Source: Methanoculleus marisnigri JR1
GTDB lineage: Archaea; Halobacteriota; Methanomicrobia; Methanomicrobiales; Methanoculleaceae
Length of the DNA: 64,000 nt
Direction of reading: 5' to 3'
Assembly: GCF_000015825.1 (NCBI RefSeq)
Contig: NC_009051.1
Span: forward strand, 2,226,695-2,290,694
The translations under genes and the position numbers were made by a program. Numbering within the stretch: position 1 is the stretch's first letter; every line of letters begins with the position of its first letter. Positions 19,377-26,666 of the stretch are shown here, piece by piece. The notes below the pieces were generated by a model, which saw only the letters and a list, made by a program, of their open reading frames with translations, was not told the DNA's origin and searched no databases.

Positions 19377-20627
19377 TCACCGGGGCGAAGCGCCGGTCTC
19401 CTCCCCATGATTCACGACCACATCGTCGATCACTTCCGCAAGCGTTGCCGCGGAGGTCGCCCTCATCTCGACTCCCGCCGCCTCAAGCGCGTAGCCGGCC
19501 GCCCTCCCAGAGAGCGAGTGATGCACGAAGACCACATCGATCTTTTGCGCGAGCAGCATCTCAGCCACCTGTCCGCCCTTCCGCTTCTCCACATCCGTAA
19601 ATGGATTGGAGATGGTGTCCTGGCGCTCGATGCGGTTCTTCTCAACGTCATAGTCAAGGATTGCGAAATACGGCGCTTCGCCGAAGTGAGCGCTGACCGA
19701 CCCCTCCCGGTCCTGCAGCGGCACCGCATACCGTAGATGCGTCTTCTTCCGGGGTTCATAGTGGATGAGGACCCGCTCGACGTTCTGCACCCGGAGCCGT
19801 ATATCCTGCTCGATGCGCTCGCTCTCCCGGTGCGCCTTCCCAAAATCCGACTCCGCCATCTCGACCATCGCCTCCACGAAGATGTAGCGCCCGGAGTTGC
19901 GGCCCGTGATACTCTTGATGCCGCTCACCTTCGGATCCGAGAGGATGATGCTGCGGATCTCGTTGAGCGTATCGTAATCGACCGAGGCATCCAGGAGAGT
20001 TCGCATGCTGTCTTTTAAGATCCCCCAGCCCGCCCGGACGATGAAGACAGCGACAACGACGGCTGCGATCCGGTCCAGGGGTATGCCGAAGAACTGCCCG
20101 AGGAGCGCAAAGAAGACAACCGAGGAAGAGAGAACATCCACCCGGTGCTGCCTCCCGTCCGCGATCAGGCTCGGGGAGTTGTACTTCCGCCCCACGTTCA
20201 CCTCGTAGGTGCCGAGGATATACGGCACCGGGATGAAGGCGGCAACGGCGAGGAGGACCCACCCGCTGTAGGGCTGGGCGGCGGCATCGCCCGTCACCGC
20301 CTCCGCCGCAATCTCGAAGGCCGTGAAGAAGATGAGGAGGGCAATGGCTACCGCGACGACATTCTCCACCTTATAGAGCCCGTACGGGAAATCCCGGCGT
20401 TTGCGCGAGGAGAGGTACACCCCCACGATCAGGGCAAGCGAGGCGACCACGTCCACGAACGAGTGGATGCCGTCCGCACGGAGGGCAAGGCTGCCTGTAT
20501 AGACCGAGAGTAGCAGTTTTGCGACGACCAGCCCGGCATTGACGGCAAGCGAGAGAAAGGCGACACGGAGGATGACGGACTCCGGCGTCCGGTAAGATCC
20601 TGCCGTCTTCCGAACCGCTTCCTGCAT
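19377..20627 (-). CDS. Cation diffusion facilitator transporter with C-terminal NifX/NifB-like domain
   Basis: The 416-residue protein has a CDF membrane domain of about six helices (residues 18-215) with the metal-site residues Asp52, His55 and Asp59 in ADGIHSFVD and a second HRVDV set. A cytosolic CDF ferredoxin-like domain follows to about 290. The last 110 residues start at VSAHFGEAPYFAILDYD, the pattern of NifX/NifB-type (dinitrogenase Fe-Mo cofactor) domains, which bind metal clusters in related proteins. CDF proteins export divalent metals; the fused domain may sense or chaperone the metal. Domain boundaries are approximate. Confidence 0.85.
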   Translation of the reverse strand: MQEAVRKTAGSYRTPESVILRVAFLSLAVNAGLVVAKLLLSVYTGSLALRADGIHSFVDVVASLALIVGVYLSSRKRRDFPYGLYKVENVVAVAIALLIFFTAFEIAAEAVTGDAAAQPYSGWVLLAVAAFIPVPYILGTYEVNVGRKYNSPSLIADGRQHRVDVLSSSVVFFALLGQFFGIPLDRIAAVVVAVFIVRAGWGILKDSMRTLLDASVDYDTLNEIRSIILSDPKVSGIKSITGRNSGRYIFVEAMVEMAESDFGKAHRESERIEQDIRLRVQNVERVLIHYEPRKKTHLRYAVPLQDREGSVSAHFGEAPYFAILDYDVEKNRIERQDTISNPFTDVEKRKGGQVAEMLLAQKIDVVFVHHSLSGRAAGYALEAAGVEMRATSAATLAEVIDDVVVNHGEETGASPR

Positions 20628-20931
20628 ACCGGATCGCCCCTTAGTGCATTCCTTGGCGTGATGTTTCCATTAATCTAACTATTATGGCCTATTTGATGGG
20701 GAAGAGGGCATCGCGGCAACTCCTCATGACGGAGGATACGGCGGTACTTCGCATGACGCCCACCTGCGGCGATGCATACGTTGCGGCGGACCTGATGACC
20801 CGCTCCCAGGAAGAGGGAAACCGAATTCATACGCTCGGAACCATTATGCAACAGGATAGCCGTCCGGTTTTCCGCCGGAACCGTTGAATACCACGGAACC
20901 GGTTAAGTCGCCCCTCGACCCATAATACCGT
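20628..20931. other. Intergenic region without a supported gene
   Basis: These 304 bases hold the start regions of the divergent CDF and methyltransferase genes. A 67-codon frame at 20684-20887 has no ribosome site and irregular codon use, so I do not call it. No hairpin or repeat stands out. Confidence 0.5.
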
Positions 20932-21522
20932 ATGGATATCTTCGACTCGGTCTACCGGAGCACGCCACCCTGGGACATCGGCCGCCCCCAGAAGGCGTTC
21001 GTCGAACTGGCCCGGGCAGGAGAGATCACGGGTTCCGTCCTGGACATCGGATGCGGAACGGGGGATCACGTCCTCTTTTTTGCAGGCGAGGGGCACGAGG
21101 TGCTCGGGATCGACACCGCCTCCCTGGCGATCCGAAAGGCCCGGGAGAAGGCTGCAAAAAGAGGACTCCAGGCACAGTTTTTCGTCGGAAATGCACTGGA
21201 ACTCTCCGCCCTCAACAGGACGTTCGATACCGTCATCGATTCGGGGCTCTTCCACACCCTCTCCGACGAAGATCGGCCGGCCCTCGCCGAGAGCCTCGCG
21301 GCCGTCCTCGCACCCGGCGGGAGATACTTCATGCTCTGCTTCAACGAGCAGAACCCCGGCGAATACCCTCTGCCGAGGAGGATCACGCAAGATGAGATAC
21401 AGGATGCCTTCCGGGACGGGTGGGTCATCAATTACATCAGGCCGGCGGTCTTTGAGAACAGCATCCAGGCCGACGGGCACCATGCCTGGCTTGCGTCGAT
21501 ATCGAGACCGATGCAGGGTTGA
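20932..21522 (+). CDS. Class I SAM-dependent methyltransferase
   Basis: The 196-residue protein begins with a PPWDIGRPQKAFVEL segment and has the Rossmann motif I VLDIGCGTGDHVLFFA at about residues 36-51, an acidic GIDTAS at 60, motif IV VIDSGLFHTL near 104 and an APGGRYFMLCFNE strand near 135. This is the thiopurine-methyltransferase-like or general small-molecule group. The substrate is unknown. ATG 20932 is about at the expected transcript start, since no ribosome site is visible. Confidence 0.85.
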   Translation: MDIFDSVYRSTPPWDIGRPQKAFVELARAGEITGSVLDIGCGTGDHVLFFAGEGHEVLGIDTASLAIRKAREKAAKRGLQAQFFVGNALELSALNRTFDTVIDSGLFHTLSDEDRPALAESLAAVLAPGGRYFMLCFNEQNPGEYPLPRRITQDEIQDAFRDGWVINYIRPAVFENSIQADGHHAWLASISRPMQG

Positions 21523-21643
21523 CAGGGGCGGATCTGTTGACGGATCCTCCTATTCTCCGCCCCTATTTCCCCCTGTAGCCGCACACGCCTGGCCGGTGCC
21601 GGGGAAGAAAACCTATGTATGGGGGATATGCTTCTACTGTTAC

Positions 21644-22456
21644 ATGGAAGATCGGCCCATAAAGGTCCTGGTCATCATGGGCAGCGCCCGGAAGGCGAAT
21701 ACCTACCGTGCAGCGGAACGGATCCGCGAGATCCTCGAGGAGGAGGCACCGGTGGACTGGGAGTACGTCATGCTCAAGGACGTCAACCTGGAGCAGTGCC
21801 GCGGGTGCTACACCTGTTTTGACCGCGGGGAGGAGTACTGCCCCATCAAGGACGATTCGGCCCTCCTGGAAGAGAAGATGCATGCCGCGGACGGGGTGAT
21901 CTTCGCCACCCCGGTGTACGGGTTCCAGGTCTCGGGGCTGATGAAGGTCTTCATCGACCGCCACTCCTACATCTTCCACCGCCCCCGGTTCTTCCGGCAG
22001 AAGGCGCTCCTCCTCACCACCGTCGGGGTGATGGGGGATAAGGACGTGCTGGACTACCTCAATGCGGTGGCCCGCATCTGGGGCTTTGAGGTTGCCGGTC
22101 GGGCGGGGATCGTCTCCCACGCGAAGATGGGCCCTCTCCCCGCCTACCGGCTGCGGGAGAACGAAGAGAAACTGCAGGCGGCGGCAAAGGCCTTTCTCGC
22201 CGCGCTCCGGAGGGAAACGCCGAGGAGGCCGGGGCTCTTCAACGTGATGGCGTTTCATATCGGGCGGGCGCCCTGCGACGAGCTGGGCGAATCGGCTCCC
22301 GCGGACCACGCCTACTGGAAGGAGCAGGGGTGGTTCGAGAGGGGGAGGCGCTACTACGTGGACGTGCCGGTCAATCCGGTCTACCATGCGTTGGGCATGG
22401 CGGCGGAGTGGTATATGCGACGGCGGGTGCGGAGGGATTTGCGGGAAGTGGGGTGA
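21644..22456 (+). CDS. NADPH-dependent FMN reductase / flavodoxin-fold protein
   Basis: The 270-residue protein has the flavodoxin-like N terminus KVLVIMGSARKANTYRAAERI (FMN phosphate loop), a CRGCYTCFDRGEEYC cluster of four Cys at about residues 50-64 typical of iron-sulfur flavoproteins, and ATPVYGFQVSGLMKVFIDR near residues 92-110. A basic C-terminal extension from about 190 contains an amphipathic helix before RRRVRRDLREVG. It likely carries FMN and possibly a 4Fe-4S cluster and passes electrons between unknown partners. ATG 21644 gives the family N terminus. Confidence 0.82.
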   Translation: MEDRPIKVLVIMGSARKANTYRAAERIREILEEEAPVDWEYVMLKDVNLEQCRGCYTCFDRGEEYCPIKDDSALLEEKMHAADGVIFATPVYGFQVSGLMKVFIDRHSYIFHRPRFFRQKALLLTTVGVMGDKDVLDYLNAVARIWGFEVAGRAGIVSHAKMGPLPAYRLRENEEKLQAAAKAFLAALRRETPRRPGLFNVMAFHIGRAPCDELGESAPADHAYWKEQGWFERGRRYYVDVPVNPVYHALGMAAEWYMRRRVRRDLREVG

Positions 22457-22622
22457 AGGGGGGCGGGTACAGAAGATAGGATGAGTTTGTTGTGACCGCT
22501 ACGGAATGAGTCGTGGCATGGGTCATGGATTTCTCGAAGGGGCGGGTGCTGCTCTACCATAGACTTCAATTCTTAATGAGAATAATCTCACGGAACTTTT
22601 TTTCCAGATATTCATTTCGGAA

Positions 22623-22635
22623 GGGTTATAAATAG
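22623..22635 (+). promoter_or_regulatory. TATA box of the AN1/transglutaminase gene (leaderless)
   Basis: GGTTATAAATAGA is centred about 26 nt before ATG 22655, the standard archaeal TATA-to-transcript-start distance, and no ribosome site is present. The mRNA should therefore begin at or next to the start codon. Confidence 0.65.
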
Positions 22636-22654
22636 ATAGCAATTGTTATTGAAT

Positions 22655-23902
22655 ATGGCGAAATGCTATTTCTGTGGTCGCCAAATTGAAGGATTACCCT
22701 ACGTCTGTAGACGATGTGGAGAAACATTCTGCATGGACCACAGATTGCCAGAATACCATAATTGTGTAGGAAAAACATTTTGCGCGGACCACAGATTGTC
22801 AGAATACCATAACTGTGTACAAGAACGATATTCTTACACCGAAAACAGTGAAGATTACTCCCGATATAGTGATAATGCGAATGGCCACTCAAGAAAAACA
22901 TCCTCACAGAGACTCGCACGGCAAACCGAGCAAGAGATTACGAAAACTCTTGCCGTTTTAGCGATTGTTGTGGGTCTTGCTTTATTCTATCCTCAAATAG
23001 TTTTGTTCGTTTCTCAGTTAGAAGACGATTCTGGTGGATCTACTGCCCTGATGCAGCAGGACCCCTCATCAACAAAGGTGACCTTACCGGATACGACACC
23101 AGAGAATCAAGCGTTCAAGGCCTCGGATATCCCTATTATTGGCGACATTATTGACCCTTCCGAATCGTTTAAGGACTCCCCAAAACCACACAATTATCCC
23201 TACTACGCTGGGGGTCGAAGAACTCTGAGTTTTACAACCTATGGCGGATTAAACGAGTATTTTTCAAAAGAAAGTCACACATACCGGTACAATTACGTGG
23301 ATGAAGTCATAATGGAGTTGCTAAAAAACTCCTATCAGGATGAGTATTTAGATCCTTTCATTGAGCAGATCGAAAAGACATCCAGTTCACCAGAGGCTCA
23401 AGCTCAAGTGGCAATCAGCCTTGTCCAGCATATACCTTACAGTTGGAACCGATATTCTGGGATGGATAGCGACTGGTATTACCCCTACGAAACACTTCAC
23501 AATAATCAGGGGGTATGCTCCGACAAATCGTTGCTCCTGAGTTACCTCTTATGCCAGTTAGGCTACGATGTGGTATTGTTTGAGTTTTCCGACCATATGG
23601 CAGTCGGAGTAAAATGTAACGGCCAATATGACTTCCAGAACAGTGGATACGCGTTCATAGAAACCACACAACCAACAATAATCACGTACATTCCAGAGGA
23701 TTATTTGGGAGGGTTTAGAGTTACGTCGGATGTGAAGATCATTCACGTACAAGGTGGAGATAAGTCCTTAGACGTGAGCGGGGAGTATCGGGATGCTCAA
23801 GAATTAAAGAAACTTGACTCGATGGGACAGGTCTTAGACCAGTATCACTACGCACGGTGGCAAGCACTCACAAAGAAATACGATCTACAATACGACACCT
23901 GA
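22655..23902 (+). CDS. AN1-type zinc-finger, membrane-anchored transglutaminase-like protein
   Basis: The 415-residue protein opens with an AN1 finger: Cys4, Cys7, Cys18, Cys21, Cys26, His29, His35, Cys37. The second half of the finger is repeated at once (Cys43, His46, His52, Cys54). A membrane helix follows (about residues 101-125), then an extracytoplasmic region with a transglutaminase-like core containing Cys288 (QGVCSDKSLL) and the His of SDHMAVGV. The third residue may be the Glu in FIETTQ rather than the usual Asp. AN1 fingers bind protein or ubiquitin-like partners in eukaryotes. The gene is much AT-richer than its neighbours, so recent transfer is likely. It probably forms an operon with the next gene. 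Confidence 0.75.
   Translation: MAKCYFCGRQIEGLPYVCRRCGETFCMDHRLPEYHNCVGKTFCADHRLSEYHNCVQERYSYTENSEDYSRYSDNANGHSRKTSSQRLARQTEQEITKTLAVLAIVVGLALFYPQIVLFVSQLEDDSGGSTALMQQDPSSTKVTLPDTTPENQAFKASDIPIIGDIIDPSESFKDSPKPHNYPYYAGGRRTLSFTTYGGLNEYFSKESHTYRYNYVDEVIMELLKNSYQDEYLDPFIEQIEKTSSSPEAQAQVAISLVQHIPYSWNRYSGMDSDWYYPYETLHNNQGVCSDKSLLLSYLLCQLGYDVVLFEFSDHMAVGVKCNGQYDFQNSGYAFIETTQPTIITYIPEDYLGGFRVTSDVKIIHVQGGDKSLDVSGEYRDAQELKKLDSMGQVLDQYHYARWQALTKKYDLQYDT
22724..22819 (+). repeat. 51-bp tandem duplication inside the AN1 finger
   Basis: Bases 22724-22768 and 22775-22819 encode TFCMDHRLPEYHNCV and TFCADHRLSEYHNCV, offset by 51 bp (17 residues). The DNA copies differ at few positions, mostly third codon bases, so the duplication is recent but not brand new. 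Confidence 0.85.
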
Positions 23903-23971
23903 TTAACCCATTTTCTGCCTTATCCAGAACAGCACACGATTACGTGATGAACAGACAGAATGATATGATAG

Positions 23972-24766
23972 ATGTCCCTAGACATCATAGAAAAGGATAT
24001 ACCGCCCAGTATGGCCCCACATGCAAATTATCTCATTGAATATCGGTTTCAGGGATCCTCCAAACACGATATTCGCAAAATGATTCTGCGTCTTACAAAC
24101 AAGTTTCACTTACATTATGCCCAACCAAAAAGACCGGTACCCCATATCACGCTTGCAGGAGGATTTACAGCAAATAACGAAAAACAACTCGTGAAAGACT
24201 TTGCCTCCCACTGTGCTGCCACCCCACTATGCAGGTTCACCGTGAACGGGTTTGGCTATTTTCACAACCCACGTGTTGTTTTCATTGATATCAATCCAAG
24301 CGACAAGTTGAAGCAGTTCCGTTGGGATCTAGCGCAACGCCTTCAGCGATACTGTAATTTAAAAAGTTACGACTATCAAGAGGATTTTGCATTCCATGCT
24401 ACTCTTGCGTTACACTTAGGGGCATCTGATTTTGCCAAAGTCAGAAGATATATTGACAGCCAACCCAAGCCAAAATACAAGCACTACATGATTCGGGCAA
24501 CCCTCCTGAAAAATGGGAAAATACTTTGTGAATATGACTTTCTACAGCGGCGATTGCTGAATCGAAGTGAAGCACTTGACGGGCGGTTGCTATCACGTAC
24601 GTTTCAACTTCTCGATGATTTCTTTAAGGGAAATTACGATCCGAATGTGAAATTAAAACCTCAAGATAGTATACCTGAACAGAGAATCAATGTCCAAAAA
24701 GAGGAGAGTCATAGTATAGTTCAGACCATTTTTAGTTTTATTAGATCAACGTTAGGAAAACCATAG
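23972..24766 (+). CDS. 2H phosphoesterase, LigT/2'-5' RNA ligase-like
   Basis: The 264-residue protein has the two catalytic motifs of the 2H family: HIT at residues 58-60 (PVPHITLAGG) and HAT at 142-144 (FAFHATLALH). The spacing of 84 residues is right for LigT-like proteins, which open or close 2',3'-cyclic phosphate or 2'-5' linked RNA ends. A 100-residue C-terminal extension has no known motif. The start could be ATG 23972 or 24011 (MAPHANYLIEY). It lies 69 nt after the AN1 gene with the same AT-rich codon use, so the two arrived together and may work together. Confidence 0.75.
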   Translation: MSLDIIEKDIPPSMAPHANYLIEYRFQGSSKHDIRKMILRLTNKFHLHYAQPKRPVPHITLAGGFTANNEKQLVKDFASHCAATPLCRFTVNGFGYFHNPRVVFIDINPSDKLKQFRWDLAQRLQRYCNLKSYDYQEDFAFHATLALHLGASDFAKVRRYIDSQPKPKYKHYMIRATLLKNGKILCEYDFLQRRLLNRSEALDGRLLSRTFQLLDDFFKGNYDPNVKLKPQDSIPEQRINVQKEESHSIVQTIFSFIRSTLGKP

Positions 24767-24793
24767 AGCCTGTTGCCATCACCAATAAGATCC

Positions 24794-25285
24794 TCAAAAC
24801 CCCTCCCCCTTCCTCAATTTAACAACAACCACGCCCCCGCGTTCCTGAACAACAATCCTCCCCATGATCTCCTCCCGCAGCCCCGCGGGGAGCCTTCCCG
24901 CCTGCCACTCCCGCTCCCGGGCAACACTCACCGCGGCATTCGCCGGGTCCGCCGCCGCGACGGCTTTCAAAGCGTAATAAGCGCCCCCGTAGGCGTGCTG
25001 GGGGACGTGTGCGGTCGCCACAGCCTGGCCCGCGGCCCGCGCAGCGAAGTGAGCCGCGTCGTTTCCCTTCGCTTCGCGGGCGGCGGCATGGGCGGCGAGC
25101 GAAGCCCCGCGGATCTCGGCCATCGTGAAGACACCCGTCCGGACCCATGTCCTGCCCGTCTCAATGGCCCTCCGCGGCCGGTCGTCCCCGGGATAGGCCG
25201 CTTCAAAGAGGGGAAGCACCCGCTCGGCGCAGTCCGCGGCCCAGGCCGCCATCGTTGTCTGATCCTGTCTGCTGTATTTCTTCAT
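24794..25285 (-). CDS. Imm-5-like putative immunity protein
   Basis: The 163-residue, Ala-rich helical protein has the pattern AADCAERVLPLFEAAYPGDD, PRRAIETGRTWV, AAHAAAREA and AHVPQHAYGGAYYALKAV, which matches the Imm-5 group named as predicted immunity proteins of polymorphic toxins. The family's biochemical role is not established. It is transcribed after the Fic gene with only 10 nt between them, so it is the second gene of that operon. ATG 25285 is chosen over TTG 25291. Codon use is GC-rich like the core genome, unlike the neighbouring LigT gene. Confidence 0.7.
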   Translation of the reverse strand: MKKYSRQDQTTMAAWAADCAERVLPLFEAAYPGDDRPRRAIETGRTWVRTGVFTMAEIRGASLAAHAAAREAKGNDAAHFAARAAGQAVATAHVPQHAYGGAYYALKAVAAADPANAAVSVAREREWQAGRLPAGLREEIMGRIVVQERGGVVVVKLRKGEGF

Positions 25286-25295
25286 GGACAATCAA

Positions 25296-26450
25296 CTATA
25301 TTCGCGTCCCTTCCTCGATGATCCTGACGTAATCCACAAACATGTACTGCTTATACCGTTCCTTCCCGGTGATCTCTTCCACGATACCGATATCCTCGAA
25401 TTTTCCTACAAGCTTGGTTGCGGCCTGACGACTGATGCGCAATTCCTCTGTTATCTGCCCTATTGTGATGATGGGGTGATCAAAGAGCGTATCGATCAGT
25501 TTAACCGCATTGACGCCGCCGATATTGTTCTCCAGCAATTTTTCAATCAGCGTTTCCTTGAGTTGAATGATTCTCTTTGCTGTTTCGATGGAATTATTGG
25601 ATACCTCTATTACGCCCTGAAGGAAGAACTCCAGCCACGCCTCCCAGTTCCCCTGGTACCGGATGCCGTTGAGGAGCGTATAGTACTTCTCCCGATTTCT
25701 CTTCAGATAATAACTGAGATACAACAGCGGCCTCGCCAGGACGTCCTTAGAGCAGAGATAAAACGTGATCATCAACCGGCCCATTCTCCCGTTGCCATCC
25801 AGGTACGGATGGATCGTTTCCAGTTGAGCGTGGATGAGAGCAGCCTTCACAAGCGTCGGCGTTCTATCGTGGCTCTGGATAAATTGCTCCAGATCCTGCA
25901 TAAGCCCCGGAACCTGCTCCGGCGGCGGCGGAACGAATACTGCATCCTGGATGGTTCCTCCCGGTACACCGATCCAGTTCTGAACGTGCCGTAACCGGCC
26001 TGGAAGTTTATGCGATCCCCGCGTCCCCTGAATCAAAAAGCGGTGAATTTCATTCATCAGATCAAGAGACAGGGGTGAGAACCCCAGTTTCTCTATGCCG
26101 TGATGAAGCGCTTTTATGTAGTTCAAGACCTCCTGGATCTCGTTGATGTCGTCTCTGGGCCGGATGTGGGCTTCGAATTCGAGAACACCCTGAAGGGATG
26201 CCTGCGTACCCTCGATCTGCGAACTTAACAGCGCCTCCTTTTTAATGTACATCGCCACGAAAAGGTCCGGGTTCGGGAGCACCTGGGTAACTCCGTCAAG
26301 GCGGGCAAGAGCGCCATCGGCTCTCGATAATAGATAGAGAATTCCCTCATCGAAAACCAGGTCCGGGGGCGGTAAAGGGTGCGGAATAAACGCGTCATAC
26401 CCATCTTGGCGGACGAAGACCCCCGCTCTATTATCGGGATACCTCTCCAT
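25296..26450 (-). CDS. fic: Fic/DOC family enzyme with self-inhibitory helix and C-terminal winged helix
   Basis: The 384-residue protein has the inhibitory motif SSQIEG at residues 76-81, placing it with class II Fic proteins whose own N-terminal helix blocks ATP. The catalytic HPYLDGNGRMGR lies at 214-225, with His214 as base and Asn220 and Arg residues in the anion hole. It fits HxFx(D/E)GNGRxxR apart from Tyr for Phe. The last 60 residues (IITIGQITEELRISRQAATK) form a winged helix-turn-helix. Fic enzymes usually transfer AMP to Ser, Thr or Tyr of proteins. ATG 26450 lies about 27 nt after a TATA box, supporting leaderless expression; a GTG at 26459 is an alternative. Five phased palindromes sit upstream. 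Confidence 0.92.
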   Translation of the reverse strand: MERYPDNRAGVFVRQDGYDAFIPHPLPPPDLVFDEGILYLLSRADGALARLDGVTQVLPNPDLFVAMYIKKEALLSSQIEGTQASLQGVLEFEAHIRPRDDINEIQEVLNYIKALHHGIEKLGFSPLSLDLMNEIHRFLIQGTRGSHKLPGRLRHVQNWIGVPGGTIQDAVFVPPPPEQVPGLMQDLEQFIQSHDRTPTLVKAALIHAQLETIHPYLDGNGRMGRLMITFYLCSKDVLARPLLYLSYYLKRNREKYYTLLNGIRYQGNWEAWLEFFLQGVIEVSNNSIETAKRIIQLKETLIEKLLENNIGGVNAVKLIDTLFDHPIITIGQITEELRISRQAATKLVGKFEDIGIVEEITGKERYKQYMFVDYVRIIEEGTRI

Positions 26451-26474
26451 GCAGTACACTTCAATCTAGAACAA

Positions 26475-26480: not shown

Positions 26481-26491
26481 TTGCCTTACAA

Positions 26492-26666
26492 GTCAACACA
26501 AGTTGACTTAGACGCGATTCGGAAATCTAAGTCAACCAGACGTAACTTACAGAGAGGCAGTGGTGTATATGTCAATCCCGGTTGACGTAGCATTGACATC
26601 TCCCTTCTAAGTCAACGCAAGTTGACATAGCGTCGACACCTCTCTTCTAAGTCAACCTGCGTTGAC
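26492..26666. repeat. Array of five palindromes with 40-bp period (candidate operators)
   Basis: Units of the form GTCAAC-N4-GTTGAC lie at 26492-26507, 26531-26546, 26571-26586, 26611-26626 and 26651-26666. Start-to-start spacing is 39, 40, 40 and 40 bp. Units 1, 4 and 5 are perfect in the core; unit 2 has CGTAAC on the right and unit 3 GTCAAT on the left. Outer TAA/TTA bases often extend the dyad to 9-bp arms. The spacers of units 3-4 and 4-5 are similar to each other, so the whole 40-bp block was partly duplicated. A period of 40 bp puts all sites near one DNA face. Confidence 0.88.

Follow-up and report, generated by a model that had tools for sequence, protein, structure and literature searches.

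A tandem in-frame duplication of half an AN1 zinc finger in a predicted membrane protein of Methanoculleus

An AN1 gene of Methanoculleus marisnigri JR1 raises the question of how a zinc finger accommodates a second copy of half of its own ligands. A reference for such a finger is yeast Cuz1, whose AN1 domain orders its ligands CC-CC-CH-HC and forms two cross-braced zinc clusters, one from the first CC pair and CH and the other from the second CC pair and HC, with a core phenylalanine that lies between the clusters and precedes the fifth ligand (PMC5035049). According to the same source, Cuz1 binds the proteasome and, by way of its Ubl domain, Cdc48. In the window analyzed here, a stretch of 64,000 nucleotides of the JR1 genome, the CH-HC half is encoded twice in succession. 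An earlier note on this DNA had proposed that selection preserves the second copy, and that the finger, with 'one and a half zinc sites', could hold a third zinc ion or contact a longer partner surface.

The gene occupies positions 22655 to 23902 of the plus strand and was delimited from the open reading frame list, Pfam matches and hydropathy. It encodes a protein of 415 amino acids, numbered here from the ATG at 22655, with an in-frame TTG at 22643 as a possible alternative start. An N-terminal AN1 finger is followed by a transmembrane stretch, predicted from hydropathy at about residues 101-119, and by a C-terminal transglutaminase-like domain. Because the flank preceding the hydrophobic stretch is net positive and the one following it is negative, the positive-inside rule suggests a cytoplasmic location for the finger and an external one for the enzyme-like domain. 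The C-terminal domain narrowly passes the cut-off for DUF553 (PF04473; 21.6 bits versus 20.5) and misses that for the Transglutaminase core (PF01841; 13.2 bits versus 23). Among the three full-length homologues G050, G094 and G049, which align with 66%, 72% and 43% identity to the window protein, only the last passes for DUF553 (31.4 bits), with G050 and G094 below the cut-off at 18.6 and 16.2 bits. C288, H314 and the acidic E336 are invariant across the four aligned proteins, and we take them to be a putative Cys-His-Asp-type triad of the transglutaminase-like superfamily. A search of NCBIfam yielded no family for the protein up to an E-value of 1, and one of the published literature found nothing on point for an archaeal family of AN1/transglutaminase-like membrane proteins. 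A TATA-like stretch, TTATAAATA, is located at 22626-22634; as this is 21 to 29 bases upstream of the ATG, the transcript could have almost no leader.

The finger itself is readily assigned. With Pfam zf-AN1 (PF01428), whose cut-off is 27.9 bits, the protein scores 50.5 bits in two matched stretches, and residues 1-38 alone score 40.7 bits. Both the Pfam match and the ligand spacing define a complete finger at 22664-22765 (plus strand) with ligands C4, C7, C18, C21, C26, H29, H35 and C37, which follow the CC-CC-CH-HC order and AN1 spacing and are invariant in the four-protein alignment. Among solved structures, Cuz1 (PDB 5IJ4) matches residues 3-37 with an E-value of 1.2e-5; it resembles the window finger in ligand order and spacing and, according to PMC5035049, in the phenylalanine before the fifth ligand, but it lacks the additional CH-HC half that directly follows the finger in the window protein. 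C2H2 arrays, PRDM9 and others, gave the best whole-sequence E-values in this comparison and were rejected, as those values sum weak local stretches, none of which passes alone.

The additional half is one unit of a tandem direct repeat of 51 bp, placed by repeat finders head to tail, without a linker and in frame with the finger. Unit 1, GETFCMDHRLPEYHNCV, at 22718-22768 on the plus strand, is the native CH-HC half and keeps the residues HRLP as in its relatives. Unit 2, GKTFCADHRLSEYHNCV, at 22769-22819 on the same strand, encodes an extra CH-HC half with C43, H46, H52 and C54, and has no counterpart in the three close homologues. The AN1 finger with a repeated CH-HC half and 12 candidate zinc ligands that the earlier note had described is thereby borne out; of the interval 22724-22819 that it gave, the end is right and the start falls six bases inside unit 1, the full units spanning 22718-22819. 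The two units are identical at 45 of 51 bases (88%), the best stretch in the window at a lag of 51; since the window, mononucleotide-shuffled 20 times, reached at most 31 of 51, a chance origin of the repeat is excluded.

Six base differences, spread over five codons, separate unit 1 from unit 2: GAA/AAA (E/K), the silent TTC/TTT, ATG/GCG (M/A, two bases), CCA/TCA (P/S) and the silent AAT/AAC. Two of the six are silent and four change an amino acid, with 14 of 17 residues the same and 3 differing, contrary to the view that the copies differ mostly at silent sites. The companion claim, that selection preserves the amino acids of the second copy, is not supported by these sequences, because a neutral draw accounts for the pattern: among 5000 random draws of six changes on unit 1, assuming 60% transitions, 44% gave four or fewer amino-acid changes, and 22% kept the four ligands and introduced no stop. 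The Nei-Gojobori estimates (dN 0.10, dS 0.26) come from 9.2 silent sites, so that the dN/dS of about 0.4 between the units means little. Six base differences are too few for reading selection, a caution that this case illustrates well. Unit 2 appears not to be visibly decayed, since it scores 39.9 bits with the AN1 profile when swapped into the place of unit 1, versus 40.7 bits for the native arrangement; it keeps all four candidate ligands and the core phenylalanine.

How widespread is this arrangement? The three close homologues, all from outside the genus, share the order of parts along their whole length and have one AN1 finger each; where the window protein has unit 2, they align with unrelated residues and gaps. 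The 3' part of the gene, compared over 785 bp, is 76% identical in DNA between G050 and the window, which is lower than the identity of the two units to each other (88%); if rates are comparable, the duplication thus probably postdates the split from G050. A search of 232 genomes of the order for the doubled half, with up to one mismatch allowed in the ligand spacing, found the exact spacing in two, each with zero mismatches: the window's genome and MH98A, a separate draft genome of the same genus. Across the phylum, with zero mismatches allowed, it occurred in one of 392 sampled genomes, again that of the window (MH98A lay outside the sample). These counts refer to one fixed spacing pattern, which misses doubled halves with other spacing, just as the profile misses a weak half. 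The Pfam AN1 model matched 96 places in the order, spread over 65 of the 232 genomes, and had a match in 244 of the 392 genomes of the phylum sample. Within the order a half-length match beside a full one was confined to the window's genome and MH98A; in G206 a lone partial match occurs, and its frame contains a stop. The earlier note had advised checking other AN1 proteins of methanogens for the repeat; apart from the window's genome, the exact spacing pattern occurs in MH98A alone among the 232 genomes. In viral contigs 88 stretches fit a pattern and tblastn identified no relative, and tblastn against plasmids gave no match. A literature search on AN1 tandem duplication with zinc binding returned, judging by title, surveys of plant C2H2 proteins, and a word search of PMC11985538 found neither AN1 nor zinc finger. 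The half-finger duplication is real, uncommon and within a known domain family, and among the genomes compared it looks like a rare domain variant of an archaeal membrane protein family.

The copy in MH98A bears on the history of the locus. The AN1 gene lies in an A+T-rich insert of about 2.3 kb (22440-24790, no strand assigned), recognized by its composition and by the lack of differences to MH98A, together with a LigT-like gene. Its outer limits are those of the stretch without differences, and two genomes with an empty site (G009 and G032, in which the insert is absent and the flanks are 77 and 39 bases apart) put the ends near 22456-22473 and 24785-24792. In 500-base windows, the G+C content is 0.58-0.66 from 20000 to 22499, 0.40-0.45 from 22500 to 24749, 0.60-0.68 from 24750 to 25499 and 0.47-0.55 up to 27749; the contrast is sharp at the left and immediately to the right, but G+C falls again farther along, in the Fic region. 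Inside the insert, 754 compared bases (22440-22868 and 24466-24790) hold no difference to MH98A. The left flank (21559-22439) has 77 alignment differences, about 9%, and the right flank from 24791 differs by about 5%, with 42 mismatches in 1247 bases of the MH98A piece L098, all in the last 922 (positions listed up to 25600). Because the insert is identical to MH98A between diverged flanks and absent in G009 and G032, it appears to have reached the JR1 and MH98A genomes recently or to have passed between them, a pattern suggestive of a recent exchange of genes among methanogens. By the same comparison of insert and flanks, the MH98A copy would reflect recent sharing and does not indicate that the duplication has long been conserved.

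The window's genome is a single contig of 2,478,101 bases, and MH98A consists of about 310 contigs, with the AN1 piece on NZ_JMIO01000068.1 (5336 bases). No match to 22869-24465 was found in the MH98A assembly, in a DNA search that scored 8 of the 55 first-look candidates there, and residues 72-415 have no close match in that assembly. Since the draft is divided into so many contigs and both of those concerned end within the insert, a gap is as likely an explanation as a loss.

For the finger, we propose a duplication of 51 bp, in tandem and in frame, that added a second copy of its CH-HC half, a helical clamp, to a membrane-anchored AN1/transglutaminase-like protein. Unit 1, at the native distance of four residues from C21, would close a two-zinc finger with C4, C7, C26 and H29 at one site and C18, C21, H35 and C37 at the other, a pairing that we infer from the Cuz1 structure. 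Unit 2 would bring an extra CH pair and an extra HC pair for which no CC partners are left, making it a spare clamp behind the finger that would be either tolerated or of slight use. That unit 1 completes an ordinary cross-braced finger and that unit 2 is spare is, in our judgment, the probable arrangement. In its favor, unit 1 stands at the native distance after C21 and has the usual proline, shared by all 41 distinct AN1 segments (filtered by the spacing pattern and including unit 1); unit 2 has serine there. Against it, unit 2 fits the profile nearly equally well and has kept its ligands and phenylalanine, and the tandem repeat persists; the same picture would be expected of a second copy that is useful. 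The spare clamp has to be weighed against a third zinc site, in which C43-x2-H46-x5-H52-x-C54 would fold alone on one more zinc, so that the finger would hold three zinc ions and offer an extended binding surface. Unit 2 does keep four ligands, and the AN1 profile picks it as a separate stretch at 22.7 bits, but ligands survive in 22% of random draws anyway, and in the known AN1 structure, as described in PMC5035049, the four equivalent residues are split between two zinc sites. Because these sites are cross-braced, what the repeat contains is a half from each of the two sites, and the count of 'one and a half zinc sites' rests on a misreading of the fold. Run without an alignment, AlphaFold2 produced models too weak to be decisive: for residues 1-65 the mean pLDDT was 52, with blocks of 66-72 for residues 1-30 and about 36-39 for residues 31-65, and for residues 1-40 it was 65, with 55 for the block 31-40. 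The low values over the region of unit 2 speak against an independent fold, within the limits of a model that is weak throughout, and we regard a third site as unlikely. Exchangeable halves, such that either unit closes both zinc sites in one of two registers and leaves the other half exposed, for example as a zinc or redox sensor, would be in keeping with the 14 of 17 shared residues, the nearly equal profile scores of 40.7 and 39.9 bits, and the presence in both units of the phenylalanine that is central in Cuz1 (PMC5035049). The use of unit 2, however, would require 21 residues between C21 and C43 versus four in the native finger, and we give this arrangement little chance.

Two further explanations concern the origin of the second unit. 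It could be the remnant of a second full AN1 finger, left when the second of two tandem fingers lost its first half. Four genomes of the order (G104, G135, G185 and G188) have tandem full-length AN1 matches in one frame, and in G185 and G188 two and three such matches precede a similar C-terminal domain, so that extra zinc-finger material lies ahead of the membrane stretch as in the window protein. By the Pfam profile, however, the extra units of G185 and G188 are full-length and have linkers, in contrast to the half-length unit 2; these fingers have diverged from each other, and in the second finger of G185 a Cys replaces one His. Between the starts of the tandem fingers in the four genomes lie 132 to 189 bp, whereas the units of the window are 88% identical in DNA and head to tail with no linker. 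From these comparisons the remnant reading is disfavored and seems quite improbable. An assembly error in the window's genome is hardly credible. The earlier note had taken close relatives without the second copy as a sign of such an error, and the three close homologues outside the genus do lack unit 2, but this is expected of a younger duplication. MH98A has both units unchanged, with the same six differences, and its contig is elsewhere about 9% different from the window, so that it is no misplaced piece of the window's genome; moreover, mis-assembly of one copy would not give two unequal copies. With the spare clamp as the preferred reading, a regulatory role is a speculative and rather unlikely extension: two clamps might compete for the two zinc sites, or unit 2 might hold a third zinc, and a cytoplasmic finger could in this way present a different surface depending on zinc or redox state, and so control the transglutaminase-like domain on the other side of the membrane. 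If the spare half binds or swaps zinc, the protein would be a natural test case for a cross-braced finger that tolerates a duplicated clamp.

The other gene of the insert, at 23972-24766 on the plus strand, encodes a 2'-5' RNA ligase/LigT-like phosphoesterase (PF13563, 61.8 bits, cut-off 27; NCBIfam TIGR02258 at 31.5 bits, under its cut-off of 65.7). In a tblastn comparison with 94 loci outside the window's genome, most of which extend 1.5 kb or less past their match, its sole match was the MH98A piece L098, a hint that the AN1 and LigT-like pair may not be conserved. Adjoining the insert on the minus strand is a gene for an Imm5-like putative immunity protein (24794-25291; PF21805, 139.8 bits), and beyond it on the same strand lies a gene of the Fic family (25296-26459) that also encodes a helix-turn-helix domain. 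Just upstream of the Fic-family gene, at 26490-26665, is a cluster of GTTGAC/GTCAAC motifs, in part arranged as palindromes such as AAGTCAAC-ACAA-GTTGACTT (identified by eye), within which a 40-bp tandem repeat lies at 26581-26656; these motifs are possibly operator sites for the Fic-family gene.
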